Of a stretch of 20,526 bases of DNA, positions 1-14,513 are shown one piece after another. The position numbers were made by a program, and so were the translations under genes. The notes below the pieces were generated by a model. It saw only the letters and a program-made list of their open reading frames with translations, was not told the DNA's origin and did no database searches. Numbering within the stretch: the first letter of the stretch is position 1; each line of letters begins with the position of its first letter. The stretch is from a virus. Location of the stretch: IMG/VR virus record IMGVR_UViG_3300044733_002940, positions 1 to 20,526 of that record; one strand, 5' to 3'.

Positions 1-1
1 T

Positions 2-55
2 GGCCTCATCAGTACCCGCATCACGGGTAGACCTGCCCGATGGCAGGTTTCGGCC
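2..55 (-). ncRNA. Type II hammerhead ribozyme (self-cleaving RNA)
   Basis: Read on the minus strand, all parts of a hammerhead occur in type II order, with stem II open. These are GGCC (55-52, stem II 3' strand), GAA (51-49, core G12-A14), stem III ACCTGCC (48-42) with loop ATCG and GGCAGGT (37-31), C (30, position 17, the cleavage nucleotide), stem I TACCCG (29-24) with loop TGATG and CGGGTA (18-13), the core CTGATGA (12-6), and GGCC (5-2, stem II 5' strand). Stem III is 7 perfect pairs including A15.1-U16.1, stem I is 6 perfect pairs and stem II is 4 pairs. Every invariant position of the family is matched. Known chemistry predicts cleavage between minus-strand positions 30 and 29, leaving a 2',3'-cyclic phosphate and a 5'-hydroxyl. 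All visible genes lie on the other strand, so the RNA is antisense or belongs to the 5' leader of a leftward transcript beyond the window edge. Stem II may extend past base 1, so any loop I-loop II contact cannot be judged. Confidence 0.85.
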
Positions 56-56
56 T

Positions 57-217
57 TGCCGGAATCAGCACCGGCACCCTATTTCCGACTTGGGGAGTAT
101 GTGTTCCCCCAGCGCAGTAGGTTTCTGCGCGGCTCCGTGGCCGTGAATCGCAACCCGCCCGCAGCAATGGCCACGGAGCCGGATTGAATCACGGGGTGTT
201 ACATCATGCACCTCCGT
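57..217. other. Ladder of consecutive unrelated hairpins
   Basis: Directly beside the ribozyme lie five further inverted repeats with almost no spacer. They are TGCCGG/CCGGCA (57-76, 8-nt loop), GGGGA/TCCCC (92-109), GCGCAG/CTGCGC (112-130, 7-nt loop), a 12-bp pair (131-180, listed separately), and ACGG-GGTG/CACC-T-CCGT (191-217, one bulged T). The arms share no sequence with each other, which argues against a simple tandem repeat and for a folded RNA or single-stranded DNA element read from either strand. None has a T-run typical of an intrinsic terminator. No open reading frame with a credible start crosses it. Function is unknown. Confidence 0.6.
131..180. repeat. Perfect 12-bp inverted repeat with 26-nt loop
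   Basis: GGCTCCGTGGCC at 131-142 is exactly matched by its reverse complement at 169-180. The 26-nt loop (143-168) contains an ACCCGCCCGC stretch. This is the longest perfect pairing in the left non-coding region and abuts the preceding hairpin (112-130) with no spacer. It could be the closing stem of a structured RNA or a protein-binding palindrome. Confidence 0.75.
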
Positions 218-431
218 TTGTTGCGGCTGCTACTGCACTCGCTTCCAAGCAGGCGACACTGTTATGTGCCATGGCCTCGGCTCGGGACTTACAATTCGCC
301 CTACGCTGTGCCACCGCCGACCTGCTCGGAAGCGAACCCAGTCGCTGCCCGCATGCGCAGGAAGTAAACCGTTTACTCCCGGCACACGGGCCGCACGCGG
401 GCCGCAAGATGATATAGGCCGCACGCAGGAA

Positions 432-453
432 AAAATCTTTCGCAAAATCTTTC
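432..453. repeat. 10-bp tandem direct repeat AAAATCTTTC
   Basis: AAAATCTTTC occurs at 432-441 and again at 444-453, separated by GC. The pair sits exactly in the centre of the larger imperfect inverted repeat 404-480. It is noticeably A/T-rich compared with the surroundings, so it is a candidate for a protein-binding iteron or an easily melted element. Confidence 0.6.
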
Positions 454-495
454 CCGCATGCGGGCCGCATATCATCGGCCAGCGTACGACCACCA

Positions 496-576
496 CTGCC
501 CGTAGTATATAACTACAGGCAGCGGGCGAGAACGTATCATTCTCGCCGCGTGAAGCGTATCATATACGCCACACGC
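496..576. repeat. Three back-to-back hairpins with shared CGTATCAT motif
   Basis: Hairpin A (496-522) pairs CTGCC and GTAGT with ACTAC and GGCAG around an ATATA loop, with one C-A mismatch. Hairpin B (525-547) has the perfect 8-bp stem GGCGAGAA/TTCTCGCC with a 7-nt loop. Hairpin C (548-576) pairs GCGTG and GCGTAT with ATACGC and CACGC around a CAT loop. CGTATCAT lies in B (533-540) and C (556-563), 23 bp apart, close to two helical turns, as expected for paired operator sites. There is essentially no spacer between the hairpins. Confidence 0.65.
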
Positions 577-587
577 GTTACGCTGTC

Positions 588-656
588 ATATAGGCCGATG
601 CCAGAAAAAATAATCCGCGAGCGTGCAGAATTATTTGTTGACCATGCGGCCTATAT
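588..656. repeat. Nested inverted repeat (cruciform-like)
   Basis: The outer arms ATATAGGCCG (588-597) and CGGCCTATAT (647-656) are a perfect 10-bp inverted repeat. Nested inside are AAATAAT (608-614) and ATTATTT (630-636), a perfect 7-bp pair around a 15-nt GC-rich loop. The right arm overlaps the predicted promoter spacer for the gene at 719, so extrusion or protein binding here could control that gene. Confidence 0.65.
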
Positions 657-666
657 ACGATACTGT
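638..666 (+). promoter_or_regulatory. Candidate promoter for the gene at 719
   Basis: TTGACC (638-643) matches five of six bases of the bacterial -35 consensus. It is followed after 17 bp by a weak -10, TACTGT (661-666). Transcription would begin near 673, and a small hairpin, GGGGA/TCCCC (678-691), would then lie in the leader ahead of the ribosome binding site at 704-710. The -10 match is poor, so this is tentative. Confidence 0.35.
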
Positions 667-718
667 ACATGGCATGCGGGGAGCGTTCCCCGGGATTCGA
701 TGTAAAGGAGATAAGGCC

Positions 719-1249
719 ATGTTGAACGTGCAAGGTATGGTATGCCGATTCCCCCGTGAGGCTTACATCCCGGGCGACCTCCCGGCGGAGTATCATGGGG
801 AAGTACGGGAATACTTCCTGCGTGCGGCCCGTAGGTCGATCATGCCGGAAGCCCGCACGGCCCGCGAGCGTGCGGGCTTGGAGGAGCGATGCCAAGAAGC
901 GGCCAGCACGGCCTACATGTTCTGGCTTGAGAACCGCACGCCCAGAATCCCCCGGGGGGCGCACGCTTCCGCCCTGTGCGGCGTGCGCCGCTTTATGGAA
1001 CGGAGTAACTGGCAAGGCCGCACCGGGCAGCGGCGAGCGGCAAGGCGTGCGATTACCGGCGAGCGGATCGCCATGCGGGAGCGGATGCGGCAACGGCACA
1101 ACCCTACGCCCGAATCCGTTGCAATGGCCGTGGAACGGATCGCCCGGACGCCCAAGCATGCAGGCAAGGCGTACAGAATCGCCCGGGCAATCGGGCTTCC
1201 GGGGGTGCGGGATTTGGTGCGGGAGGCGTGCGGGTTTGGGGTGGAGTAG
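719..1249 (+). CDS. Hypothetical basic protein, isolated gene
   Basis: This 176-residue protein is of unrecognised function. The ATG at 719 is chosen because AAAGGAG at 704-710 sits 8 nt upstream. An upstream in-frame start at 623 lacks a site and would read through the nested inverted repeat. The product is rich in Arg and Ala and looks mostly helical. A strongly basic middle (about residues 100-135) and a C-terminal half with HNPTPESVAM and GLPGVRDLVREA might bind nucleic acid, but no family motif is seen. The gene stands alone between two structured non-coding regions, so it may be a separately regulated early or control gene. The coding strand contains an 11-bp perfect hairpin (849-879) and many GCGTGCGGG-like strings, like the adjacent non-coding DNA. 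Overlapping frames on both strands lack ribosome binding sites. Confidence 0.7.
   Translation: MLNVQGMVCRFPREAYIPGDLPAEYHGEVREYFLRAARRSIMPEARTARERAGLEERCQEAASTAYMFWLENRTPRIPRGAHASALCGVRRFMERSNWQGRTGQRRAARRAITGERIAMRERMRQRHNPTPESVAMAVERIARTPKHAGKAYRIARAIGLPGVRDLVREACGFGVE
849..879. repeat. Perfect 11-bp inverted repeat inside the coding region
   Basis: AAGCCCGCACG (849-859) and CGTGCGGGCTT (869-879) pair perfectly around a 9-nt loop within the gene at 719-1249. The encoded residues (about 44-54, EARTARERAGL) form an ordinary helix, so the pairing is not forced by an obvious protein motif. It may be an mRNA hairpin or part of the same palindrome-rich architecture found upstream. Confidence 0.6.
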
Positions 1250-1258
1250 CCGATGCAT

Positions 1259-1297
1259 GCCAACCCGGGCCGGGGATTGAAACCGGCCCCGGTTGGC
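1259..1297 (+). terminator. Strong GC-rich hairpin after the gene at 719, terminator-like
   Basis: Ten bases past the stop codon, a 15-bp stem with one mismatch runs from 1259 to 1297. The left arm is GCCAACCCGGGCCGG, the right arm CCGGCCCCGGTTGGC, and the loop is 9 nt. No T-run follows, so it is not a classical intrinsic terminator. It could be a 3'-end stabiliser, a factor-assisted terminator or a weak terminator. Confidence 0.5.
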
Positions 1298-1374
1298 AAC
1301 CTTACGAAAACGAAAGCCGATAGGGTAGACTGACAGCAACGGCGAAAGCCTTGCCAGTGCTAGACTTAGGGAAA

Positions 1375-1420
1375 GGGGCTTGGAGGGTTAGCCTTGCCGA
1401 AAGGTAGCCCCCCAAGCCCC
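1375..1420 (+). other. Stable multi-tier stem-loop
   Basis: GGGGCTTGG (1375-1383) pairs perfectly with CCAAGCCCC (1412-1420). Inside, after a bulged A, GGG pairs with the C-run, and CCTT/AAGG closes a 5-nt loop, giving a long, nearly continuous hairpin. AGCCTTGCC occurs both just before the hairpin (1348-1356) and inside it (1390-1398). No T-run follows. It may be a leader or attenuator structure for the downstream operon. Confidence 0.55.
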
Positions 1421-1602
1421 CCCAGTCGCCGCGCAGGATCATGTCAATTCCCCTCCTGACTTTTTTCACCCCCGTGGCCCCCACATGTTTCCCCCGGTCA
1501 TTCCCGCCTCCACCCGCCCGCCGCTCCACTTTCCCACCGCGTGTCGCCAGAGCCTCTGGTGTGCGTTTTAACGCCCGCTAGCCTCCCGTGACGCCTGTGG
1601 AC

Positions 1603-1612
1603 ACTTGTCTAC
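1603..1612 (+). promoter_or_regulatory. Decamer ACTTGTCTAC shared with the 12.5-kb promoter region
   Basis: The same ten bases occur at 12526-12535, where they overlap a -10-like TAAACT. In both places they precede the ribosome binding site of the next gene (15-20 nt). Here no good -35 is visible at the matching distance. It may mark a transcription start for the adhesin operon. Confidence 0.35.
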
Positions 1613-1638
1613 TAGGATCGGGCGTCTGGAGGCTTCCT

Positions 1639-4098
1639 ATGCCGTGTGCGTGCTGCTGTTCTGAGTGCAACTCCCCGGAGCCCGACTGTTGCGGCGGTGA
1701 GTATCCCCGCCTGGTGGGCGTGTGCTGCGAGGGCGTCTGGCGCGTCGGTGGCGGGGTGTGCTGCAACGGCACCTGGCGGACGGGCTCTGGCACTTGTTGC
1801 GGCGGTGTCTGGCAGACTGGCTCTGGGGTCTGCTGTGCGGGCGTCTGGCAGACTGGTACGGGTGGGTGCTGCGGTGGCGTGTGGTACTCCGGGGAAGGCT
1901 ACTGCTGTAACGGCACCTGGCATTCCGACGCTGACCCAGACGCTCCATGCCCAGAAGGCTGGACGTTCCACCGCTGGGGCGACAGCCTTGAGTGCTGTGG
2001 CTGCGTCCCTCCAGAGTTCTTTGACCCGGAGCTGAACGGTGGCCGGGAGACAACCGAGGATGTCCTGGCCGCGCTGTGTTGTCCCCAATGTGGATCGGTG
2101 ACGCTTCAGAATGAGTACGGCGAATGCCCTGGTCAGTGCTGCGACGGTGACGGCGGATGCACGGACACCGTGTACTCCAACTGCACAGGCGAGGGCTACA
2201 CCTGGAACACCGCCTGCTGTTCATTGGGCTGTCCGGTGGCGTGCTGCGGCGAGGACTCCGCGGGAAACGTGGGCTGCGGTATCACCTACTCCACCCTGTG
2301 TCTTGGGTACACGGCGGAAACCTGCGAGACGGGCTGTCTCGGGGAGTGCTGCGTTGACGGTGTTTCCCAGGGGCAGACTACCCAGGCCGACTGCTTTGCG
2401 GCCGGCGGGCTGTGGGGCGGACTGGGTAGTACCGAATGCCCCGGAGAAGGCGATTGCCGGTCGCCATTCTCGGAGAACTGCTGCGAGACAAAGCAGTCTT
2501 CTGGGGCCGGGCTGATCTTCATTCAGCCCTACAACAAACGCACCCCTGCCTTCCAGGGCACTGTCCGTGCCACTGTGACAGGGACCACCGACTCGCCCAT
2601 CCGCGTGCATGGCGTGCCCGTGGGACAACCCGGCAAGCGATGCCCGTTTACGGTCACCTTCCCGCTGTGCCGGGACCGCTTTGAGATCGAACCGATTCCG
2701 TGCGGCTCCACGTTCCACCGCGTGGATGTGACTGTCTGCTGGGAGGAAGTGGAGACAACCACCGAGGCGCTGAACTTCTCGGCCTGCAACGGCCTGAACT
2801 GGAGCCTCAGTGACTGCGACAAGGACTGTGCGACTACGCTGGTCTACACCGGGTCTGGGGCGACTACGACCGCCAACCTGACGCTGTTCTGGGACGCGAC
2901 CATCCAGGCAGATGGATCTGGTCCCCTGGTCCTGACAAGCACCATCACGCAATCCGGCACCTGCGACCGGACGCTGACGCTGTCCGGCTCCAGCACGCAC
3001 CTCAACGAAATCCGACGAATCAGCGACCCCGCTGGCAGCAACGTTTGCAACGTTGTCAAAGAAGGCATCGGATTGTGGAGAATGAACGCCACCAGCAAGG
3101 ATTTCAACGGCACACTGACCGTCAAGGGCGGCACCATGCAGGTGGCCAATGCCGCGGCGGTCGGAAGTCCGGTTGCCATCGGGGACACGGCTGTGGGTGC
3201 GAGCGGGATCGCGGCGTTACTTTTGGAGCAAAGCGTCAATACGACTGCAAGTTTTGATGTGGGGGCCTCGGGCGGCACGCAGGCGGTGCTGATCGGCGGT
3301 GCCAACACTTCCGGTACGGCGACGTTCTCCGGGGGCGTTCTCCGCATGCGCCGCGGCGTGACTCTGGTGGCTGCCACGGGCGGTACGGTCGAATTTTCAA
3401 ACTTCTGGGCCGGCGATACAAATCTCTCGCCAGCAAACCAAAATGTGACAATTGGCGCGATAGGCTACGCAGGCACAGCGCAAATCTTTTACCCTGGCGG
3501 GCTGTACACATCCGGAGAAGTCCGTATTGCGTTTGGCAGCGCCGTTAGCGGGTTTAGTACGGTCATCTCCGCCAGCGGCGGCCTGACGCTCCAGAGCAAT
3601 ACATCGCTAAGGGTCACAAAAACCAGCGATGGCATTGACCCGTCCACGCCCGTGACGGCGTTTAATTCGACGCTAACCGTCTGGTATGACACGGGAGATC
3701 CACCGTCCTCGCAGTCGCTGGACGAACTGCGCGTCCTGGGGACGCTGACCTTGGACGGCAACGGCTCCCTGACCGTGGAAGATTTGTCCGGGTCCGGCGG
3801 CATCGACAATGAATCGGGAACGCTGACGATCAACCAAAACAGCATGACCGGCAGTCTGTCGATCACGGGCGGGACGGTGATTGCCAATGAACCGATCAGC
3901 AACCCCGGCGGCCTGGCGGTGTCGGCAACATTTACAAGCGGTTCGCTGACGGTGGCGTTCTCAGGCAACCCAGCAACAGGCGCCGAATACGTACTGCTGG
4001 ATGGCCCGACAGTCAACACCTACGCCTCGGTGACGCTGACCGGAACTACCGCCACCGGAACTTACGATTCGGCCACCTCCACGCTGACAATCGACTGA
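1639..4098 (+). CDS. Cysteine-repeat adhesin / tail-fibre-like protein
   Basis: This 819-residue protein starts at the ATG after TGGAGG (1627-1632, 6-nt spacing). Residues 3-282 contain about 47 cysteines. Residues 28-99 are six exact-length 12-residue repeats of the form x-CC-x-G-[VT]-W-x5. Further CC and CxxC motifs continue to NCCETK near 282. Residues about 290-400 form a region with few repeats. From about residue 480 to the end the chain is Gly/Ser/Thr-rich with short beta repeats such as GTLTVKGGTMQVANA and LSITGGTVIANEP, the pattern of a right-handed beta-solenoid as in autotransporter passengers and phage fibres. There is no signal peptide or membrane segment. I infer a virion fibre or host-surface adhesin, with the Cys-rich head stabilised by disulfides or metal. 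It heads a coupled gene run, with the next ATG one base past its stop. Function is inferred from architecture only. Confidence 0.8.
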   Translation: MPCACCCSECNSPEPDCCGGEYPRLVGVCCEGVWRVGGGVCCNGTWRTGSGTCCGGVWQTGSGVCCAGVWQTGTGGCCGGVWYSGEGYCCNGTWHSDADPDAPCPEGWTFHRWGDSLECCGCVPPEFFDPELNGGRETTEDVLAALCCPQCGSVTLQNEYGECPGQCCDGDGGCTDTVYSNCTGEGYTWNTACCSLGCPVACCGEDSAGNVGCGITYSTLCLGYTAETCETGCLGECCVDGVSQGQTTQADCFAAGGLWGGLGSTECPGEGDCRSPFSENCCETKQSSGAGLIFIQPYNKRTPAFQGTVRATVTGTTDSPIRVHGVPVGQPGKRCPFTVTFPLCRDRFEIEPIPCGSTFHRVDVTVCWEEVETTTEALNFSACNGLNWSLSDCDKDCATTLVYTGSGATTTANLTLFWDATIQADGSGPLVLTSTITQSGTCDRTLTLSGSSTHLNEIRRISDPAGSNVCNVVKEGIGLWRMNATSKDFNGTLTVKGGTMQVANAAAVGSPVAIGDTAVGASGIAALLLEQSVNTTASFDVGASGGTQAVLIGGANTSGTATFSGGVLRMRRGVTLVAATGGTVEFSNFWAGDTNLSPANQNVTIGAIGYAGTAQIFYPGGLYTSGEVRIAFGSAVSGFSTVISASGGLTLQSNTSLRVTKTSDGIDPSTPVTAFNSTLTVWYDTGDPPSSQSLDELRVLGTLTLDGNGSLTVEDLSGSGGIDNESGTLTINQNSMTGSLSITGGTVIANEPISNPGGLAVSATFTSGSLTVAFSGNPATGAEYVLLDGPTVNTYASVTLTGTTATGTYDSATSTLTID
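1720..1935 (+). repeat. Six tandem 36-bp repeats encoding CC-G-W units
   Basis: Six in-frame 36-bp units encode VCCEGVWRVGGG, VCCNGTWRTGSG, TCCGGVWQTGSG, VCCAGVWQTGTG, GCCGGVWYSGEG and YCCNGTWHSDAD. The two cysteines, the glycine at position 5 and the tryptophan at position 7 are invariant. DNA identity between units is only partial, so the array is old enough to have diverged while keeping its length and key residues. Confidence 0.9.
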
Positions 4099-4099
4099 T

Positions 4100-4468
4100 A
4101 TGGCCTGCATTGAAAAATATTACGACGAGCAAGGGGATTTGCAGGAGCGGCCGTGCGATGGCCAGCCGACCCCTGCTTCTCCCGTCATGCCTATCGCCAG
4201 GGAGGACGCCCCATCGTTCCTGACCAAGGTGAAGAACTTTGCCGTCGCATCGGCCAAGCATGTGGCTGCGGGGATGCCCATGGCCTCCGACGCCGAGATC
4301 CTACGGCGGCATGACATCTGCCAGGGGTGCGAGTTCTTCAAGGACAACTCCTGCCAGAAATGCGGGTGTCCGGTCAGCCGCACCAAGAAGTACATCTCCA
4401 AGCTCTCATGGGCGGACCAGGAATGCCCCGTGGGGAAGTGGGGCAAGGAAACGCAATCGGCGTCTTGA
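4100..4468 (+). CDS. Small zinc-ribbon phage protein (DUF6171-like)
   Basis: This 122-residue protein starts one base after the adhesin stop and is therefore probably translated by coupling. The C-terminal third carries CQGCEFF, then CQKCGCPV, then QECPVGKW (residues about 75-115). This CxxC...CxxCGCP...CPxGKW arrangement matches my memory of small phage and bacterial zinc-binding proteins annotated as DUF6171. Four to six cysteines would hold one or two zinc ions. The N-terminal half is low-complexity and Pro-rich. Its role is unknown, possibly virion assembly or nucleic-acid contact. Confidence 0.75.
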   Translation: MACIEKYYDEQGDLQERPCDGQPTPASPVMPIAREDAPSFLTKVKNFAVASAKHVAAGMPMASDAEILRRHDICQGCEFFKDNSCQKCGCPVSRTKKYISKLSWADQECPVGKWGKETQSAS

Positions 4469-6775: not shown

Positions 6776-7674
6776 TGGCCGACATCTACGACCGCATCCA
6801 GCAGGCAATGGACGAAACGGCGCAGATGCCGCGTCAGCCCTACCCTTCCATGTTGAGCGTGGTGGCCAACCACCCCGGGGTCTTGGGCCATCAGATCCTC
6901 ACCGATGAGGAGTACCAGCAGAAGCTCAAGTACGCCGCCCTGATGGAGCGGTTGCAGAAGATCCAGGAAGAGGACGCTCCGGGGTTTAACCAGGCGGTGA
7001 TCTACCGTGAGCCCACCGTCAGCAGCATGACGGGCGAAGGCTACATGCGGGATGTGGTCGGCAGAGAGCTGAAGTTTGATGACATCGACCGCTCGCCCTA
7101 CCGGGAGCGTGGCATGCTTTCTCCAGGGATGCCGCTCCGCAACGCCTTTGATGTGGTGCAGGCCCCGTTCTCTGTGGCAGCGAACACCGCTCGGGCCGCC
7201 TGGGACTTGGATAAGGCGGCCGAGAACGCTCCGCACGTAGCCAACAAAGCGACGGGCGGTCTTTGGAATGCCGTCCAGGGCAAGGATCCCAATGAGGCGT
7301 GGGCCGCGGAGCGTGATCTGGTCGGAAAGATTCCGTTCAACCATACGCTCATGTTTCAGACAAAGGGCAACCCAGGCGCCGCCCTGCCGCAACTTCCGGA
7401 CAAAGGCATTGTCGAAGGCCCGCAAGTGCTGAAGGAAGACTTCGACTTTCCGGACAACTGGAAGACCGACATGGCTGGCTATGCGCTAGAGGCCGCCGCA
7501 GACCCCGTCACCGGAGCCACGGCCGCAATCCGCCATCTCTCCAAGGGACTGAGAGCCGCAGCGCCAGCGGCCCGCGCAGCCCATGCACTGCGAGCGGGCG
7601 GTCTATTCGGCCAAGAGATGGCCATGCCTGCAACATGGGTTGGCATCGGTGAGGCGAGCCGCAGGCTGGAGTAG
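6775..7674 (+). CDS. Hypothetical virion-associated protein
   Basis: This 299-residue protein has an ATG that overlaps the preceding stop (TAATG), implying translational coupling with the polyvalent-type gene. An N-terminal charged helical part (residues 1-70) is followed by a middle with YMRDVVGRELKFDD and SPYRERGMLSPG. A C-terminal Ala-rich part contains MAGYALEAAADPVTGATAAI and ends in a weakly hydrophobic helix. The A-DP-TG style resembles parts of internal virion proteins of podovirus-like phages, but no family is securely recognised. It lies just before the EndoVII insertion and the capsid block. Confidence 0.6.
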   Translation: MADIYDRIQQAMDETAQMPRQPYPSMLSVVANHPGVLGHQILTDEEYQQKLKYAALMERLQKIQEEDAPGFNQAVIYREPTVSSMTGEGYMRDVVGRELKFDDIDRSPYRERGMLSPGMPLRNAFDVVQAPFSVAANTARAAWDLDKAAENAPHVANKATGGLWNAVQGKDPNEAWAAERDLVGKIPFNHTLMFQTKGNPGAALPQLPDKGIVEGPQVLKEDFDFPDNWKTDMAGYALEAAADPVTGATAAIRHLSKGLRAAAPAARAAHALRAGGLFGQEMAMPATWVGIGEASRRLE

Positions 7675-7678
7675 GTAG

Positions 7679-7689
7679 GGCATTAGTCC
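7679..7689 (+). repeat. Direct repeat GGCATTAGTCC, left copy
   Basis: This 11-bp sequence recurs exactly at 8299-8309, on the other side of most of the EndoVII gene, and its first 10 bases recur at 16696-16705 before the portal gene. About 17 nt further on is TAGGAGATGCC followed by TGTCTGA. That closely matches the portal leader TAGGAGACGCC-ATGTCTGA, as though this is a displaced translation-start leader that lost the A of its ATG. Confidence 0.7.
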
Positions 7690-7691
7690 TG

Positions 7692-7705
7692 TGAACAAGT
7701 GTTCA
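7692..7705. promoter_or_regulatory. Palindrome TGAACA-AG-TGTTCA over the EndoVII start
   Basis: A perfect 6-bp inverted repeat with a 2-bp centre covers the candidate GTG start (7699-7701). It is absent from the otherwise similar portal leader. It could be an operator for a dimeric repressor limiting the endonuclease, or a hairpin masking initiation. Confidence 0.4.
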
Positions 7706-8352
7706 TAGGAGATGCCTGTCTGATCGTTGAATCCTCCAAGGCGTGCGGTCGCTGCGGCGAGTCGAAGCCGCTGTCGGCCTTCTACGGAAACGCCAGCGGA
7801 CGCTTGGGACTGCACTCATCATGCAAGACCTGCATGAATGCCAGCAAGGCAGCCAGCAAGCAACGCTTCCGATCTGCCGGACAAGCGCGCAGTCCGGCGG
7901 CCAAGAAGTGCGTCATGTGCGGCCTTACGCATCGGGCAAGTGCGTTCTACGCGCACGCCACTTCTGGCGATGGATTGCGCACCTACTGCAAGGACTGCGA
8001 CAGGGTTGTGCGGCGGGCCAACAAATACGGCCTGTCGCGTGATAGGGTGGCCGAGATGCTTCAGCAGTCGCGGTGCGAGGCTTGCAAGAAACCGCTTGAG
8101 AAGAGTTCGCACAAGTTCATTGACCATCGCCACGCTGACGGCGCCGTACGCGGAGTCCTCTGCGAGCCCTGCAATACGACGCTCGGCAAGTGTCTAGAAA
8201 ACAAGGCTGTTTTGCTTGGGCTTGTGGCGTACTTGGATCGCACTAAGTCGGTGGACTATCGGTTTCAGCCTTACCTGGAACAAAACCCGTCTGGTGAAGG
8301 CATTAGTCCGTTAGGCCACCACCCCCCAGCGAGCCAAAGCGACAATGTCTGA
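7699..8352 (+). CDS. Recombination endonuclease VII-like protein (putative homing endonuclease)
   Basis: Two zinc-ribbon modules come first: C16/C19 with C42/C45 (ACGRCGESKPLSAFY) and C71/C74 with C97/C100. The endonuclease VII domain follows: GLSRDRVAEML, CEAC (126-129), IDHRH (141-145), VRGVLCEPCN (150-159), LGKCLENKAVLLGLVAYLD. C126, C129, C155 and C158 bind structural zinc, and the DH and N residues form the beta-beta-alpha-metal active site, which cuts branched or specific DNA. The length of 217 assumes the GTG at 7699, which lacks a ribosome binding site. AGGAG (7707-7711) is better placed for a rare CTG start at 7720. The stop lies within the ATGTCTGA that starts the next gene. Flanking 11-bp repeats and the disrupted leader imply a mobile, free-standing endonuclease rather than a core phage resolvase. 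Confidence 0.85.
   Translation: MFIGDACLIVESSKACGRCGESKPLSAFYGNASGRLGLHSSCKTCMNASKAASKQRFRSAGQARSPAAKKCVMCGLTHRASAFYAHATSGDGLRTYCKDCDRVVRRANKYGLSRDRVAEMLQQSRCEACKKPLEKSSHKFIDHRHADGAVRGVLCEPCNTTLGKCLENKAVLLGLVAYLDRTKSVDYRFQPYLEQNPSGEGISPLGHHPPASQSDNV
8299..8309 (+). repeat. Direct repeat GGCATTAGTCC, right copy
   Basis: This is an exact copy of 7679-7689, lying inside the last codons of the EndoVII gene. About 35 nt further on comes the ATGTCTGA start of the scaffold gene. Together with the left copy it brackets 620 bp holding nearly all of the endonuclease gene, as expected for a duplication at an insertion junction. Confidence 0.7.
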
Positions 8353-9382
8353 AGAACTCTCGCCCGAAACAGTTTCCGAAGCGCCTGTATCTGACGGCCA
8401 GGTGGCCGCGCAGGCCCCAGCAGCAGCGCCTTCCGATAGCAACGCCTCAAGCGGCTTCGATAGTCCGTTCTCGGCGTTCCGCCATTTGCCAGAGTTCTCG
8501 GGCGCCGATGATCTGGCTATCGCCCAAGACCTGTACCGCTCGCGGCAGGGCTACCTGGAGAGTCAGCGGATCCTCAGTCAGTACCAGAACCTCATTCCGC
8601 AGGCGAATGAGTATCTGCGAAACAAGTCCGAATACGAGAAGTGGCAGGCAGCGCAACTCGCTGCCGCGCAGCCGCAGCCGGAGCCAAAGAAGAAGTTCTG
8701 GGATCCGCCTTCGGTTGAGGAAACCTACAAGTCCTACATCATCCGCGATCCGCAGACGGGCAAGGAGGTCATTGACCCCAACGCCCCGTACGAAGCCCAG
8801 CAGGCTCTGCGGAAGTACCAGGACTACACGGCGAACTTCGCTCGCAAGTTCGTCACGGATCCCGAGAACACGCTGAAGCCGTTCATCGAAGACGTTGCCA
8901 TGCAGAAGGCCAAGGAGCTGGTCGAACAGCACCTCGGCCAGTACCAGGCGCAGAACTATGTCCAGGATCTGGAACGCCAGAACGCGGATTGGCTCTACGA
9001 CGAGGCGGGCAACATCTCGCGGGAAGGCCAGGCGATTCAGGCGTATATCCAGCAGGCTTCGGAGTTTGGAATCAATTCTCCGGAAGCTCGTTGGAAGTTT
9101 GCGACAGGCATGCTCCAGCGTGATCTCCTGAACGTCCGCTATCAGCAGATGCAGCAGGCTCCCGTGCCGCAGCCGATGCCGCCGCAGATGCCGCAGGGCT
9201 ATGCCGAGCCGGCTGCCCCGCCCTCGGACCCCGTGGCGGAGAGCAACATGCAGTTCCTTCGGGAACGTGCGACCCGAACCCCCAACCGTAGTGCTGGAAC
9301 CACTGAGCCGCGGGCACCTCGCCAGCGGATGTCTTTTGAAGAGAGGCTTCGCGGCCAACTCGTTAACGATGGAGTGATCTGA
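8345..9382 (+). CDS. Capsid assembly scaffolding protein
   Basis: This 345-residue protein lies directly upstream of the major capsid gene and overlaps it by one base (TGATG). It is acidic and low-complexity at the N-terminus (Ala/Pro/Ser/Glu-rich), and helical and Gln/Glu/Lys-rich in the middle (about residues 60-270). It ends in a basic tail with PRQRMSFEERLRGQLVND. This composition and position are typical of podovirus scaffolds, whose basic C-terminal helix binds the inner face of the capsid protein. There is no sequence-specific signature, so the call rests on context and composition. It has no strong ribosome binding site of its own. A good TAGGAG lies 5' of the EndoVII gene instead, suggesting that its leader was displaced. 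Confidence 0.75.
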   Translation: MSEELSPETVSEAPVSDGQVAAQAPAAAPSDSNASSGFDSPFSAFRHLPEFSGADDLAIAQDLYRSRQGYLESQRILSQYQNLIPQANEYLRNKSEYEKWQAAQLAAAQPQPEPKKKFWDPPSVEETYKSYIIRDPQTGKEVIDPNAPYEAQQALRKYQDYTANFARKFVTDPENTLKPFIEDVAMQKAKELVEQHLGQYQAQNYVQDLERQNADWLYDEAGNISREGQAIQAYIQQASEFGINSPEARWKFATGMLQRDLLNVRYQQMQQAPVPQPMPPQMPQGYAEPAAPPSDPVAESNMQFLRERATRTPNRSAGTTEPRAPRQRMSFEERLRGQLVNDGVI

Positions 9383-10494
9383 TGAGCAGTTCGACCGACT
9401 GGGCTCGTTCCATTGCAACGACGATTGTCAATCATCTCCGTGAGGAAGAGATTGCGTCGTTGCGGAAGTTTAAGTTCTTCGCTGCCCTTGAGGGTGCGGG
9501 CCGTATCCGCACCAACATGAGTGGCCGTGGCTTCGACTGGGAAATCCAGTACCGGAACCACAATCCCTCTGGGAATAATGGTGAGACTCCTCGCAGCTTC
9601 GCCCGCGAGAATCTCTGGAAGAAATTAGAGTTGGAGTATCGGGGGGCCCAGGTCACCGATGCCATCTACAAGAAGGAAATGCTGGAGAACCGCTCGGCTC
9701 AAGCTCTTGTGAACGTGGCCGGGAAAATGGCGAGCCGTCTGCTCACTTCGATGGAGCAGTACCTGGCCAGGGAGTGGGTGCAGGACGGTTATGCGGCCGG
9801 CAATGAGCTGCGGTTCCACGGCATCGAATCGTTCATGGGCGCGACCCAGACGATTGACGCCACTCTGGCTGGTGCCACGGCCCGCTCGGCCAACACGGCT
9901 GACCCGTTCTACTACCCGAACGACACCTACGCCGGTCTTTCGACCGTCCTCGGTGCGTACGGCGGCTCGGCGGACGGCGTGTCGATGTGGCCGAACGGCG
10001 ATGTCGATCCGGAATTCGACTTCTTCAGCCCGGTGATTGTGAACGCGGACAGTTCGTACTTCGGGGCTTCGACCTGGAAGGACAACTGCTCCAAGGCCCT
10101 GCGTGAGGCGATCCATCAGACCCGCCGGAACGACACCAAGGAAGACCAGATCGACATGGTTCTCCTGGACCGGCGGCTGTACATCGACTTCCTCAACACG
10201 CTGGACGCCAAGGAGCGTGTCATCGTCAGCCGGACCAACGGTCTGCGGAGCTACGGCTTCACGGATGTGTTTGAGTTCGACGGCGTGGAGGTCGGGAGCG
10301 AGGTGAGTGTTCCTGCCAACACCGGCTACGGTCTGGCGACGGGCAACATCGAACTCCTCTGCATGGAAGGTCAGTTGATGACCTCTGAGGGTCCGTTCTA
10401 CGACGAGATCACGCAGCAGTACCGCTACGTGGTGTCCACGCTCGGCAACCTCAAGTTCAAGAGCCCGCGTAACTTCTTCAAGCTCGTTGTCTGA
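9382..10494 (+). CDS. Major capsid protein (HK97-fold)
   Basis: This 370-residue protein has GGAGTG 5 nt before the ATG. It begins with a short helical arm and the motif KFKFFAALEGAGRIRTN. A P-domain-like segment (RSAQALVNVAGKMASRLLTSME) comes next, then an A-domain with DMVLLDRRLYIDFLN and KERVIVSR. The C-terminus is GLATGNIELLCMEGQLMTSEG with a beta-rich end, NLKFKSPRNFFKLVV. Length, position after scaffold and overall pattern fit HK97-fold capsid proteins of podovirus-like phages. No protease gene or cleavable delta domain is evident, so assembly probably uses the separate scaffold. It would be the most abundant virion protein. Confidence 0.85.
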   Translation: MSSSTDWARSIATTIVNHLREEEIASLRKFKFFAALEGAGRIRTNMSGRGFDWEIQYRNHNPSGNNGETPRSFARENLWKKLELEYRGAQVTDAIYKKEMLENRSAQALVNVAGKMASRLLTSMEQYLAREWVQDGYAAGNELRFHGIESFMGATQTIDATLAGATARSANTADPFYYPNDTYAGLSTVLGAYGGSADGVSMWPNGDVDPEFDFFSPVIVNADSSYFGASTWKDNCSKALREAIHQTRRNDTKEDQIDMVLLDRRLYIDFLNTLDAKERVIVSRTNGLRSYGFTDVFEFDGVEVGSEVSVPANTGYGLATGNIELLCMEGQLMTSEGPFYDEITQQYRYVVSTLGNLKFKSPRNFFKLVV

Positions 10495-10514
10495 AACCAA
10501 GGAGATAGTGAAAC

Positions 10515-11105
10515 ATGAGTCTGTTGATTGATCCGCCGTTCGCCCTTGGTCAGACGCTGGGCGTCAGCTCCACCGCTGACGGCCAGAACTGGGTTGGGGT
10601 ATTGAAGCAGTTTCCTGACGTTGATCCGAACACCGGCCGCGTGCGGTCGAATCGGGTGAAGACCTGCGTGGCGGTGCGAAATGCGGCCAGTGTCGCTCTC
10701 GCTCCGAAGCGTCTGGTGCGGTTTGCGGTCGGCACTGCCGGCCCCTCGGTCTTCTCGGCTGTTGACGGCTATGTCAACGTGGCGAACGAGGAGCGGGTGG
10801 GCGTTGTGGACGAACACCTCCCGGCCGGCGGCGTGGCTGTGAACGATGTGTTCTGGGTGACGGTGTCGGGTCCGACTGAGGTCGCTGTGGCGCTCTCGGG
10901 CACGGATGTGGCGGTTGGTAACCGGCTGTCGGCCATCACGGCCGCTGCCAGCACCAGCTCCACCGCCGGCCGCGTGACGCCGTCGCCGCTGTCGGCTTCG
11001 ACCGCTGGTGCCAACGACAACGGCATCGGCGTGCTGGGCCGTGCGTGCAGTGCAGGTGCGACCACCGGGACGAACGTCCTGGCGATCCTCCAGACCCGGT
11101 ATTGA
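10515..11105 (+). CDS. Putative capsid decoration / head protein
   Basis: This 196-residue protein has AAGGAG (10499-10504) 10 nt before the ATG. The protein is Val/Ala/Gly/Thr-rich, with predicted beta strands such as VGVVDEHLPAGGVAV and VFWVTVSGPTEVAV, and a flexible STSSTAGRVTPSPLSAST segment. Small beta-rich proteins encoded right after the major capsid protein are commonly head decoration proteins that stabilise expanded capsids. This one resembles DUF2190-type decoration proteins in style, without a decisive motif. It is followed by a good intrinsic terminator, so it is the last gene of the capsid transcript. Confidence 0.65.
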   Translation: MSLLIDPPFALGQTLGVSSTADGQNWVGVLKQFPDVDPNTGRVRSNRVKTCVAVRNAASVALAPKRLVRFAVGTAGPSVFSAVDGYVNVANEERVGVVDEHLPAGGVAVNDVFWVTVSGPTEVAVALSGTDVAVGNRLSAITAAASTSSTAGRVTPSPLSASTAGANDNGIGVLGRACSAGATTGTNVLAILQTRY

Positions 11106-11131
11106 ACATGCCCTGTTTGGGGCTAGGGGGG

Positions 11132-11166
11132 AGCCTCTGATCTGGGCAACCGGGTCAGAGGCTTTT
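11132..11166 (+). terminator. Rho-independent terminator after the capsid block
   Basis: AGCCTCTGA (11132-11140) and TCAGAGGCT (11155-11163) form a perfect 9-bp stem with a 14-nt loop, followed directly by a short T-run. It lies 27 nt after the decoration-protein stop and before the 48-residue gene, giving the expected end for abundant capsid mRNA. Confidence 0.85.
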
Positions 11167-11180
11167 CCACTTTCTAGAAA

Positions 11181-11327
11181 ATGAACGATCCGGCGATTCA
11201 AAACCTGGACTACCTGCGCCAGCTCATCGCAGAGGTGCGTGGAGAGAATCCGTACCTGGACATGCTTCGGCTACGGATGATGCAAGACACCGGCATGGGC
11301 GTTGATCAAATAGTGGAGGAGAGCTGA
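11181..11327 (+). CDS. Small hypothetical protein, 48 residues
   Basis: This frame runs from ATG 11181 to TGA 11327, beginning MNDPAIQNLDYLRQLIAEVR and ending GVDQIVEES. Its stop overlaps the ATG of the next gene (TGATG), which supports it being translated. The product is acidic and likely two helices. No strong ribosome binding site is visible; the sequence before it is TTCTAGAAA. It probably acts with the following Gln/Pro-rich protein. The function is unknown. Confidence 0.65.
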   Translation: MNDPAIQNLDYLRQLIAEVRGENPYLDMLRLRMMQDTGMGVDQIVEES

Positions 11328-12499
11328 TGCTTTGGCAGAAGTCGCCGCAATATCAAGGCATGCCCCATGATCAGTACATGCAAACTGACGAGGGCAAGCG
11401 TTCGCAGCAGGCGTTTTCAAACTGGGGCAACTGGAACCGGACTGGCATGTCTGGAGGTTCCGCCCCGCAGTCGCAGAAGCCCTCCTGGCAGAAGCAGGAT
11501 GGCTCATTCGATTACATGGGCTGGATGAATAGCCCTGGTCGATACTCGCCCGACGCCCAGCAGGCATGGCAGCAGGCCGGATCGCCAAAGTCATTCCGGC
11601 CCGGCCAGGCCCAACCCATCCAGCCGCAGTCGCAGGGCACGCCTTATGGCCAGCAGCCGCCGTTCACGCAGTCCATGTATACGCCGTTCGGGCAGATGAA
11701 CCCGAATCAGTATTACCAGCAGCGGGATGCGTTCATCCAGACGGCCAACGACCAGATGGGCCAGTACATGGCCAACGGTGGCGTGTACCAGGGCCAGGGG
11801 GCACCGCCGCCAACGTGGGGCCAGCAGCCGCAGTTCAACCCCATGCAGATGTGGGGCCAGGCCGGCGACATGGTTCAGCAGGGATGGCAGAACCCGTACG
11901 CCCAGCAGCCGTACGGCCAGCCGTACGGTGGCGGCGGATACATGGGTCAGCCGCCAGCCGCCCCGCCGGCTCCTCCGCAGCAGAAGCCGCCCCCGGACCT
12001 TCTGCAACAGTACAAATCCCTCGTCATGCAGCCGACTTCGGGGCGATCTAATTACGGGCAGGGGTACGAGGCTGCGTTCAACAAGCTCATGCCAGAGGCC
12101 CAGAAGTCTGGCATGTACACCGACCAGCAGCTCCAGGCATTGCGTGACGAGCATGCCAAGTGGATGGCCCATGAGCGCAAGACTGCTCCCGGGCAGCAGC
12201 AGTCGATTGCCGACCACAACAAGATGATGTCCAACATGGACGCTTGGTCGCTGAGCCAGAAGCGAGCGATAGACGCCGCCAACCCAAAGCTGCCTCAACG
12301 CAAGACTGCCCCCGACACGCTGGCGAGGGTCAGCGCCGCCAACCAGGCCGCCAGTGGCCAGCCCACTGATCAGGCCGACCAGCTTCAGAAGTCGCGAGCC
12401 GCGCATATGGCGGCGATTAATTCGCCGGCCAACAAGCAGTGGCTGGCCTCCATGTCCCCGGCCAACCGCCGCATCTACTCAATGATGCAGCAGATATAG
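11327..12499 (+). CDS. Gln/Pro/Tyr/Gly-rich low-complexity protein
   Basis: This 390-residue protein is coupled to the 48-residue gene by TGATG. Residues about 60-240 are dominated by Gln, Pro, Gly, Tyr and Met, with strings such as NPYAQQPYGQPYGGGGYMGQ and APPAPPQQKPPPDLLQQ, like prion-like or elastomeric sequences. The C-terminal third (about 240-390) is more ordered and helical, with YEAAFNKLMPEAQKSGMYTD and LQALRDEHAKWMAHE. There is no signal peptide and no enzyme motif. It is possibly a virion or head-tail component with a flexible arm. No family is recognised, and a glycosyltransferase gene follows. Confidence 0.65.
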   Translation: MLWQKSPQYQGMPHDQYMQTDEGKRSQQAFSNWGNWNRTGMSGGSAPQSQKPSWQKQDGSFDYMGWMNSPGRYSPDAQQAWQQAGSPKSFRPGQAQPIQPQSQGTPYGQQPPFTQSMYTPFGQMNPNQYYQQRDAFIQTANDQMGQYMANGGVYQGQGAPPPTWGQQPQFNPMQMWGQAGDMVQQGWQNPYAQQPYGQPYGGGGYMGQPPAAPPAPPQQKPPPDLLQQYKSLVMQPTSGRSNYGQGYEAAFNKLMPEAQKSGMYTDQQLQALRDEHAKWMAHERKTAPGQQQSIADHNKMMSNMDAWSLSQKRAIDAANPKLPQRKTAPDTLARVSAANQAASGQPTDQADQLQKSRAAHMAAINSPANKQWLASMSPANRRIYSMMQQI

Positions 12500-12554: not shown

Positions 12555-13427
12555 ATGCAGCAAAAGTTCAACGTCGGCATCGTTACTTTCTCTTACGGTG
12601 GCAACGGCGGCATCTCCTCCGAAGTCCCTGACATTCGGGAGTGGATGATCCCCGTAGTCCTTGACCTCTCCAAGGATGACCGCGTGGGCAGCATCCGCGT
12701 CTGGAACCTGTCAGACACGCCCATCACCATGACCCGCAACCGGGCTGTCATTCAGGCTCGGGAGTACGGCGTGGACGTTCTGGTGATGGTGGACAGCGAC
12801 ATGAAGCCGGACATGCTCGCCGGCCATCCTGGCTCCCAGCCGTTCTTCAAGAGCAGCCTGGACTTTCTTATCAACCACTACCACAAGGGGCCGTGCTGCA
12901 TCGGTGCCCCATACTGCGGTCCCCCGCCGCAGGAGTGCGTGTATGTCTTCCGGTGGAACAACTGGGCTTCAGACAACCCGAACCCCGACTACCAACTGGA
13001 AATGTACGACCGCCACACGGCCGTGAAGATGGCCGGCATCCAGGAGTGCGCCGCGCTGCCGACCGGGCTGATCATGTACGACATGCGATGCTTCGACCTT
13101 ACGGAACCCAAGAGCGAAGCCGACAAGCCGTGGTTTTTTTACGAGTGGAAGGACAAGTATTGCGCTGAGAAGGCTTCCACTGAAGATGTGACAATGACCC
13201 GCGACCTGTCCATGGTCGGCTCCCAGAAGCTGGGATACAGCCCCGTGTACTGCAACTGGGACGCCTGGGCCGGTCATTGGAAGCCGAAGTGTGTGGGCAA
13301 GCCGCAGGTGCTGGCGGCGAAGGACATCAGCAGCAAGATGAAGGCATGCTGGGAGGCGAACGTCGATCCAGGCGTGAAGCTGGTAGACATCTCGCCGCCG
13401 GCCTGGCTGAAGAGTGTCAACGTATAA
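12555..13427 (+). CDS. Glycosyltransferase, GT-A fold (family 2-like)
   Basis: This 290-residue protein starts with NVGIVTFSYGG, the usual first beta strand of a GT-A domain. It contains MTRNRAVIQAREYGVDVLVMVDSD ending in the metal-binding DSD at residues 80-82. A later acidic region with EDVTMTRDLS and the motif WAGHWKPKC complete a GT-A-like catalytic domain. Such phage enzymes move a sugar from a nucleotide sugar, either to phage DNA or protein or to host surface polysaccharide; the target cannot be told. The presence of several cysteines (CCIGAPYC) is unusual and echoes the Cys-rich adhesin. GAGGTG and its own promoter suggest separate expression. The last 14 nt overlap the next gene. Confidence 0.8.
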   Translation: MQQKFNVGIVTFSYGGNGGISSEVPDIREWMIPVVLDLSKDDRVGSIRVWNLSDTPITMTRNRAVIQAREYGVDVLVMVDSDMKPDMLAGHPGSQPFFKSSLDFLINHYHKGPCCIGAPYCGPPPQECVYVFRWNNWASDNPNPDYQLEMYDRHTAVKMAGIQECAALPTGLIMYDMRCFDLTEPKSEADKPWFFYEWKDKYCAEKASTEDVTMTRDLSMVGSQKLGYSPVYCNWDAWAGHWKPKCVGKPQVLAAKDISSKMKACWEANVDPGVKLVDISPPAWLKSVNV

Positions 13428-14037
13428 GACTTGCATTCAGTGCGGGACATCGTATCCCGCCACCACCGAGAACTTTCACAAGTCCAAGGATGGGCTGCAC
13501 GCGCGGTGCCGTCGCTGCCGGAACGACAAGCTCAAGGGTGAGCGCAAGCAGGTCCGCAACAAGCGGCTGGCCAGGATTGAGAAGTCGGCCATCGACTCTT
13601 TCGTCAAAGCCTCCCGGCTTGGCGGTGCGAACATCCCGCACTCGTCGGAGCTCCTTGAGATCCTCATGGACTACTTCGGCGGCGTCCGTGGGTTCGCAAA
13701 CGCATTCCTGAAACAATTTTACGAAGCCCCAGTCGGCGGTGCCTTCCGCACAAAGATGCTTGACACCGTCGTTCGCTTAGTTGTGGGAAACACGGCTATG
13801 GGAGGTGCCAAGAAGCCATTGGAGTTAATGACCGAAGAGGAACTGGAAGCCGAGCTGCGACGGCAAGTCCTTGAGGCGGCCATGAGCATGCAGCATGTCA
13901 ATGTGGTGGAGAGCGTGCCGGGCCTTCCCGCGCCTCAGATCCCCGCCCCCGAGCAGCAAACTGTGGTTTATGTAGACCGCGCGACCCAAACGGCGCCTGA
14001 GGATTCGGTCGGTGGAGGAGCAAACCGGGAGCCATGA
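13414..14037 (+). CDS. Zinc-ribbon fused to terminase small subunit-like domain
   Basis: This 207-residue protein starts at a GTG overlapping the glycosyltransferase end by 14 nt, without a clear ribosome binding site. Residues 5-36 are a zinc ribbon with C7/C10 and C32/C35 (TCIQCGTSY, LHARCRRC). It resembles the N-terminal ribbon of the EndoVII protein in this window, including the spacing and the following basic stretch. The rest (about 55-155: SSELLEILMDYFGGVRGFAN, GAFRTKMLDTVVRLV, LELMTEEELEAELRRQ) has the helical style and position of phage terminase small subunits, which bind packaging sites on DNA and recruit the large subunit. TerS identity is inferred from the genes that follow. The fusion may reflect capture of an endonuclease's DNA-binding module. 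Confidence 0.6.
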   Translation: MSTYKTCIQCGTSYPATTENFHKSKDGLHARCRRCRNDKLKGERKQVRNKRLARIEKSAIDSFVKASRLGGANIPHSSELLEILMDYFGGVRGFANAFLKQFYEAPVGGAFRTKMLDTVVRLVVGNTAMGGAKKPLELMTEEELEAELRRQVLEAAMSMQHVNVVESVPGLPAPQIPAPEQQTVVYVDRATQTAPEDSVGGGANREP

Positions 14038-14513
14038 GGAAGTCTGTTAAGGAGAGGCTGGTCAGTAAGTCCGTAGTCGCAGACAGCGGTTGCTGGGAAT
14101 GGCAGGGCGGGCGATTCAATACAGGCTATGGGGCAATAAGTGACAAGGGTCGCACTCGCTATGCGCACCGCGTGTCATACGCCGAATTTAATGGGGAGAT
14201 TTCGGACGGCATGCTTGTCTGCCATCGCTGCGACAACCCGATATGCGTGAATCCAAAACACCTGTTCTTGGGGACTCCTGCCGACAACATGGCCGACAAG
14301 GCCGCTAAAGGGCGGTCCATGCGTGGAGCGCGGAGCAGCACGGTCAAGCTAACTGAGCCAGAGGTGCGGTGCATTAAGGCTTTCCTGCGGCGGAATCCTC
14401 CAGTGCGGGGCAGTCACGGCGGGCCATGCACTTTCCTGGCGAGGTGGTTCGGGGTGTCGCAAACAGCCATTTCCTTGATCCATGCCGGCCGAAACTGGGC
14501 GTGGCTGGTCTAA
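14034..14513 (+). CDS. HNH endonuclease, homing-type (HNH_3-like)
   Basis: This 159-residue protein's ATG overlaps the preceding stop by 4 nt (ATGA). CWEWQG (20-25), GYGAI, AHRVSYAEFNGEI (44-56) and CHRCDNPICVNPKHLFLGT (63-81) with H64, N73 and H76 form the beta-beta-alpha-metal nuclease. NMADKAAKGR follows. The C-terminal LTEPEVRCIKAF and LARWFGVSQTAISLIHAGRN form a helix-turn-helix that would provide DNA specificity. This layout is typical of free-standing phage homing endonucleases. It interrupts the TerS-like/TerL pair, as such genes often do. An alternative role is packaging-associated nicking, which HNH proteins perform in some HK97-like phages next to TerL. The NUMOD-like end favours homing. 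Confidence 0.85.
   Translation: MRKSVKERLVSKSVVADSGCWEWQGGRFNTGYGAISDKGRTRYAHRVSYAEFNGEISDGMLVCHRCDNPICVNPKHLFLGTPADNMADKAAKGRSMRGARSSTVKLTEPEVRCIKAFLRRNPPVRGSHGGPCTFLARWFGVSQTAISLIHAGRNWAWLV

Follow-up and report, generated by a model that had tools for sequence, protein, structure and literature searches.

The window, by which we mean the whole analyzed stretch of 20,526 nucleotides of viral DNA, carries a rightward series of structural genes that includes the major capsid gene (9382-10494), the portal gene (16719-18713) and several HNH endonuclease genes. The first ORF of this rightward operon (719-1249, plus strand) encodes 176 aa, lies divergent to the leftward operon described below and has no PHROG match in the scan of the ORF list. 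Among the virion genes, an 836-aa ORF (1588-4098) begins with a long cysteine-rich repeat (CCxGxW... units) and also has no PHROG match. Two or three homing-type endonuclease genes (endonuclease VII/HNH; 7699-8352, 13414-14037 and 14034-14513) are placed among the structural genes, near capsid and terminase. The window contains no tRNA, and named phage relatives were found neither by DNA nor by capsid protein.

The left edge of the window is occupied by a type II hammerhead ribozyme motif that spans 2-55 on the minus strand and is identified by its RF02276 score, a lineage covariance model and covariation. Read 5' to 3' on that strand, it starts with GGCC (55-52), GAA (51-49) and ACCTGCC (48-42), passes through an ATCG loop (41-38) into GGCAGGT (37-31) and C17 (30), and continues with TACCCG (29-24), a TGATG loop (23-19), CGGGTA (18-13), CTGATGA (12-6) and GGCC (5-2). 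Stem II (52-55 paired with 2-5, GGCC with GGCC) has 4 bp and is open; stem III (42-48 paired with 31-37, 7 bp) and stem I (24-29 paired with 13-18, 6 bp) are closed. One core strand is GAAA (48-51, minus; G12 A13 A14 and A15.1), which is invariant in 10 orthologues, and the other is CTGATGA (6-12, minus; C3 to A9), in which sequence and orthologue alignment identify N7 as the T at position 8. The invariant hammerhead core CUGANGA, GAA, A15.1-U16.1 and H17 is completely present in type II order between bases 55 and 2. The hammerhead motif itself defines where cleavage takes place, namely after C17, which sets the predicted site between base 30 and base 29 of the minus strand.

The initial annotation had recognized here a complete type II hammerhead with all invariant nucleotides in order, and had proposed a covariance search as a check. 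In this search, RF02276 (Hammerhead_II) reaches 34.5 bits in the window (E 3.5e-5, for 700 bases against 4227 Rfam families). This is below the gathering score of 37 bits because the contig ends at base 1, and a default Rfam scan of the window, to which that cut-off applies, lists no match. The near-identical genome G002/L183 (IMG/VR 3300042860_002301, 57,870 bases) is 100% identical to window 1-4452 and runs on past base 1; with its full flank the same element scores 39.0 bits (E 4.5e-8), which is above the cut-off and agrees with the sequence-based assignment. A lineage covariance model built from the orthologues (R1) gives 74.4 bits for the window ribozyme, and when the ribozyme is folded without constraints together with its true continuation, the MFE structure is that of a hammerhead. 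A strict descriptor found no match in 400 dinucleotide-preserving shuffles of the window, and a loose descriptor found two.

A capsid-based search found 80 related loci, and a descriptor scan detected the ribozyme, again on the minus strand, in several of these. In an alignment of 10 orthologues (A1), all 158 paired cells are standard pairs, and 7 pairs in stems I and III are altered on both sides, which amounts to 18 double-changed cells in total and no broken pair. Covariation in these two stems, which had been named at the outset as a test of the motif, is therefore found in the relatives. Shuffles contain on average 5.3 double-changed cells, and none of 500 was as high as 18; when the partners were slid by 1-3 columns as a control, pairing was only 19-41%. 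Stem II is silent on covariation because it is invariant across the orthologues. The core is invariant or nearly so in the 10 orthologues, with L078 having CTGAAGA, a change at the free N7. The lineage model detects one element per ribozyme-bearing genome, always at the same place, and no further hammerheads elsewhere in 1.37 Mb of related DNA. Paired hammerheads flanking a unit, as in a retrozyme-like layout that yields RNA circles, are absent, the element being single copy in the lineage loci searched. An inactive sequence that resembles a hammerhead by chance or by decay, for which the sub-threshold score in the window could be cited, is extremely improbable in view of the unbroken covariation in ten relatives, the full-flank score and the strict descriptor result in shuffles. 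Judged from these data, bases 55-2 of the minus strand are a complete, genuine type II hammerhead, for which self-cleavage is predicted.

Beyond base 1, L183 reads ...CTGATGA GGCC ACTAACCTCGGGAGGTGTC ATG CCGAAAGGT..., that is, a Shine-Dalgarno (SD) sequence and the start of a 115-aa ORF, and the continuation into this ORF reads ...CTGATGAGGCCACTAACCTCGGGAGGTGTCATG... Counted from stem II, the first start codon follows at 19 nt, which is 18 nt past base 1, and it is read from the strand that also carries the ribozyme. This order recurs in relatives, in which SD and ATG come 16-18 nt behind stem II wherever the coded ATG can be clearly recognized. The 115-aa ORF opens a leftward operon of small genes, among them those for a DUF7249 protein, a DNA methyltransferase and a GHKL ATPase, and this gene content suggests that the operon is early-type. 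The view that the element lies opposite all phage genes is correct inside the window, but not beyond base 1, where a gene starts on the same strand 18 nt further on. As the element is located on the sense strand, before the first gene of the divergent operon, it is not antisense in any functional sense. The proposed processing of an antisense RNA against the late operon, to which the position of all rightward genes on the other strand could lend itself, is very improbable: a sense gene begins just 19 nt downstream of the element, the element sits at the boundary and not within the late genes, and similar elements elsewhere are found on the coding strand. Indeed, for 117 of 120 non-redundant viral elements among the matches listed in the scan described below, a start codon on the element's own strand comes no more than 90 nt behind stem II, the median distance being 28 nt. 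The other role that the initial annotation had considered, processing of the 5' leader of a leftward transcript, fits the anatomy, as L183 and the relatives show the ribozyme directly before SD and ATG of the first leftward gene.

The leftward transcript unit has a conserved leader element, GCATGCGGGCAG (345-356, minus), which immediately precedes either a cassette or the first leftward gene in 25 of the 26 motif matches listed. This element is adjoined by the inverted repeat AGTAAACCGTTTACT (363-377), a GTAAACG(T/G)TTTAC-like sequence that is kept in relatives and that is possibly an operator. A sigma-70 scan for promoters found no leftward site and one rightward site at chance level. Between leader element and ribozyme, the window contains a cassette of about 290 nt (56-344, minus) that corresponds to a strongly structured leader RNA without convincing ORF; the fold of 55-365 (minus) has -152.6 kcal/mol (z = -5.5 versus shuffles). 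This cassette is species-specific. Among the related loci compared, only the near-identical genome also has it, named phages gave no match to it, and the sole other match to its hairpin pattern, L267, is an unrelated context, so that no other relatives of the cassette were found. It includes a putative minimal start-stop ORF, ATGATGTAA (199-207, minus), behind a good SD (GGAGG). Relatives have an ORF of 37-53 codons there.

Considering this cassette, the chief task of the ribozyme could be 3'-end formation on a small structured leader RNA (56-344, minus), with the downstream mRNA being incidental. Such a role agrees with a leader that folds far better than its shuffles, that lacks a convincing ORF and that is sharply ended by the ribozyme, and also L004, L032 and L038 have a mostly non-coding cassette with a 67-nt core in common. 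However, the structured leader is limited to one species, the same place is taken by a tiny coding ORF in L015, L023, L096, L100, L245 and L078, and the constant feature is the ribozyme adjoining the downstream SD, not the upstream RNA, so we regard this role as unlikely. The 67-nt sequence of L004 (2078-2144), L038 (358-423) and L032 (2287-2353), in each case on the minus strand, contains an SD, a TTG and a short frame (LGAIRSP), and these sites ahead of the ribozyme are the only ones where it was found.

The first leftward gene varies among the relatives and is of four kinds, A to D, every one of which except B has been seen both with and without the ribozyme. In ribozyme-less relatives, the conserved leader (...GTAAACGTATTACTTCCTGCGCATGCGGGCAG) is directly followed by SD and ATG; in ribozyme-bearing relatives, a cassette of 88-301 nt and the ribozyme are found between leader and SD. 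The six ORF cassettes mentioned before have 37-53 codons, and their stop codon overlaps stem II, abuts it or precedes it by 2 nt (TAGGCC-GAAA), with an overlap on the first G of stem II in L015, L023, L078 and L100. L078 and L080 share a downstream protein that is 98.5% identical and nearly identical DNA in that region. Relative to L080, the insert of L078 consists only of a 53-aa ORF and the ribozyme, with the direct repeat CCAATGGAGGTACGATG at both ends, and from this alignment the two are a clean occupied/empty insertion pair. On a capsid tree of 33 relatives, ribozyme presence or absence changes 7 times, at least 6 of these on well-supported branches, a count that may be too high if the capsid and early regions have recombined with each other. 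The ribozyme is missing from about two thirds of the relatives compared and is therefore dispensable. Furthermore, L008 and L077 contain a tiny inserted ORF without recognizable hammerhead, and L056 contains an insert (perhaps an ORF) without hammerhead, so that ORF and ribozyme can part. In L077 (3380-3500, minus), the tiny ORF cassette at the same site is followed by two hairpins before the next ribosome binding site (RBS); these have no Rfam match, no other Rfam ribozyme was found in the insert, and the hairpins are possibly another processing element.

An explanation of why the element is there would be that it acts mainly as an insulator in a mobile ORF-ribozyme cassette, where a gene that inserts at the operon's head brings its own cutter and the old first gene keeps its own transcript. 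The repeat-flanked insert of the L078/L080 pair speaks for this, as do the at least six changes on the capsid tree and the differing ORFs and RNAs upstream of near-identical ribozymes. As the inserts of L008, L077 and perhaps L056 do without a hammerhead, the cutter is not required, and the possible inflation of the change count also weighs against the insulator. We find this explanation nearly as likely to be right as wrong; it is compatible with the mRNA cutting that we favor.

We think that the ribozyme in the 5' region of the leftward early-type operon probably cuts the mRNA into separate hairpin-ended transcripts. This proposal builds on what can be read from the sequences, namely the motif and its covariation, the strand on which it lies, its position ahead of SD and ATG, and the pairs with and without insert. 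RNA polymerase would start to the right of the leader element and transcribe leftward through the short cassette, which is a structured RNA in the window phage and a tiny ORF in most relatives, and then through the ribozyme. Self-cleavage after C17 (window base 30) would then produce two pieces. The upstream one would carry the stem III hairpin and a 2',3'-cyclic phosphate at its 3' end, and the downstream mRNA would open with a 5'-hydroxyl followed by the stem I hairpin, about 40 nt ahead of the first gene's start codon. In the type II topology, stem III stays with the upstream 3' end and stem I with the downstream 5' end, so both new ends are hairpins, and the expected result is a cassette RNA and an operon mRNA as two RNAs with protected hairpin ends. 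The promoter position, the cleavage itself and its timing in vivo, and the effect of the hairpin ends on stability are what we infer here. As the upstream RNA in the window is not a clear gene, it is uncertain what gets separated from what. An unmasking of the SD by cleavage, which was hinted at by an unconstrained fold, has been rejected: when the hammerhead is enforced, the SD openness changes from 0.48 to 0.47 in L183, and from 0.574 before to 0.568 after the cut in 119 other elements.

A scan of IMG/VR with a degenerate pattern for GGCC-stem type II hammerheads gave at least 120 stretches, and when prokaryote genomes totalling 257 billion bases were searched with a somewhat stricter pattern, only 33 stretches matched; as the two patterns differ, this is only a hint of a viral enrichment. 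In the 120 elements among the matches listed, a clear SD is present in 79, the corresponding shares being 21% for random positions and 7.5% for the opposite strand. An ORF stop precedes 105 of these 120 listed elements, and its median position is at the edge of stem II, at a distance of about zero. The common architecture, as read from these predicted elements, is stop codon - ribozyme - RBS - start codon. An extreme case is G008/L090 (IMG/VR 3300038412_000035), where 11 type II hammerheads are found on one strand within about 5 kb. The distance from an ORF stop to the following stem II is 0-9 nt for most of these ribozymes and 0-3 nt for several, and a start codon comes soon after. In this operon a cut is predicted between nearly every gene pair. 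In the isolate Singulisphaera sp. GP187 (L271), a prophage-like region (7117-12211, minus) contains six good type II hammerheads, on the strand opposite to a capsid homologue with 34-37% identity to the window's, and a Pirellulaceae MAG contains on one 55-kb contig a 90% identical capsid together with an orthologous ribozyme, which points to planctomycete hosts. In the GGCC-stem set, 5-nt UNNNG loops prevail as loop I. Complementarity of at least 4 pairs between loop I and the 3' tail occurs in 30 of the 120 elements among the matches listed, compared to a mean of 34 with swapped tails.

Clustered prophage hammerheads have been proposed to cut transcripts into gene-length mRNAs, and three hammerhead clusters cleaved during in vitro transcription, while 4 of 18 tested consensus hammerheads were inactive in vitro (Perreault et al. 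2011, PMC3088659). Like the RF02276 consensus (Perreault et al. 2011, PMC3088659), the window element has the core, the stem order, closed stems I and III, an open stem II and, with full flank, a score above the gathering cut-off. In contrast to this consensus, the published pseudoknot between loop I and 3' tail, which is common but not universal, finds no clear support in the GGCC-stem set, and the 4-bp stem II of this set is often fused to the stop codon of the preceding gene. With the clusters of Clostridium scindens, Azorhizobium and Agrobacterium ardA (PMC3088659, Fig. 3), the window element shares its position between phage genes or before a start on the coding strand, as well as the proposed processing into gene-length mRNAs. 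Unlike these clusters, the window's lineage has only a single ribozyme in each genome that carries it, where it heads an early-type operon, and this lineage offers matched ribozyme-less relatives and an occupied/empty pair. The hammerhead of the haloviruses HF1 and HF2 (HHphage) is located 13 nt before the start of the helicase gene, the first gene of an early transcript, and a mapped 5' end is at most 3 nt from the cleavage site (PMC3088659). In HHphage as in the window, the ribozyme is separated by only a few nt from the start of a gene that opens an early polycistronic transcript, with a 5' end mapped in HHphage only, but HHphage is a core variant, whereas the window ribozyme has the consensus core and belongs to a bacterial-type phage. 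The theta (HDV-like) ribozymes of gut phages (PMC10879173) are also self-cleaving phage ribozymes thought to trim co-transcribed RNA, with cleavage in the window being predicted, but they have a different fold and are tRNA-linked.

The reason why phages and bacteria keep hammerheads has been unclear since 2011. A role in mRNA segmentation was already proposed by Perreault et al. 2011; the added interest here lies in the unusually clean natural controls. Near-identical phages differ in whether the ribozyme is present at a single site upstream of the same gene, which makes its role directly testable, and the L078-type insert, which is solely a tiny ORF and the ribozyme, adds to these controls. 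Moreover, arrays in cultured hosts such as Singulisphaera sp. GP187 make the processing model testable in the laboratory.

A further feature was observed in a subset of other viruses, but not in the window's lineage. Of 182 elements, 45 have a tail with XTCAG within 8 nt after stem II, and in 44 of these 45, X is the Watson-Crick partner of the core N7 (C-G 29, T-A 14, A-T 1); a permutation control gave a mean of 23 matches and a maximum of 35 in 10,000. For the 120 elements among the matches listed, the exact partner was observed in 40 tails, compared to 0.9 of 120 with shuffled tails. Two within-family switches were found, L092 versus L154 and L185 versus L195. The corresponding competitor hairpin, CUGAN-(GAGGCC)-N'UCAG, is seen in L154, L185, L092, L195, L147, L113 and others. 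It uses the CUGAN core strand and part of stem II, and is therefore incompatible with the active hammerhead fold. Its effect may be to trap the product once the cut has been made, or to keep the ribozyme inactive. A limited literature search found no earlier description of it. The prediction that A or G at N7 goes along with TTCAG or CTCAG tails failed in a dedicated scan, with 1 of 32 R7 elements; R7 elements mostly have no partner tail, and the hairpin is therefore a feature of the pyrimidine-N7 subset and not general. A second register, N7-GAGG with YCUCN', could be formed by the window tail as UGAGG/CCUCG, but N7 does not covary there and this register is not supported.

Combining these observations, we tentatively suggest, while leaning toward doubt, that phage type II hammerheads are modular ORF-ribozyme units, made of a stop codon fused to stem II, a cutter and the RBS of the next gene, which plug into operons and segment them. 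A subset of these would possess the N7-covarying competitor hairpin, which would either refold the 3' product and so render the cut irreversible, or turn the ribozyme off, and the window element would be of the modular kind without covarying competitor. If this is true, the competitor hairpin explains the letter at N7, a position at which the hammerhead consensus takes any base.
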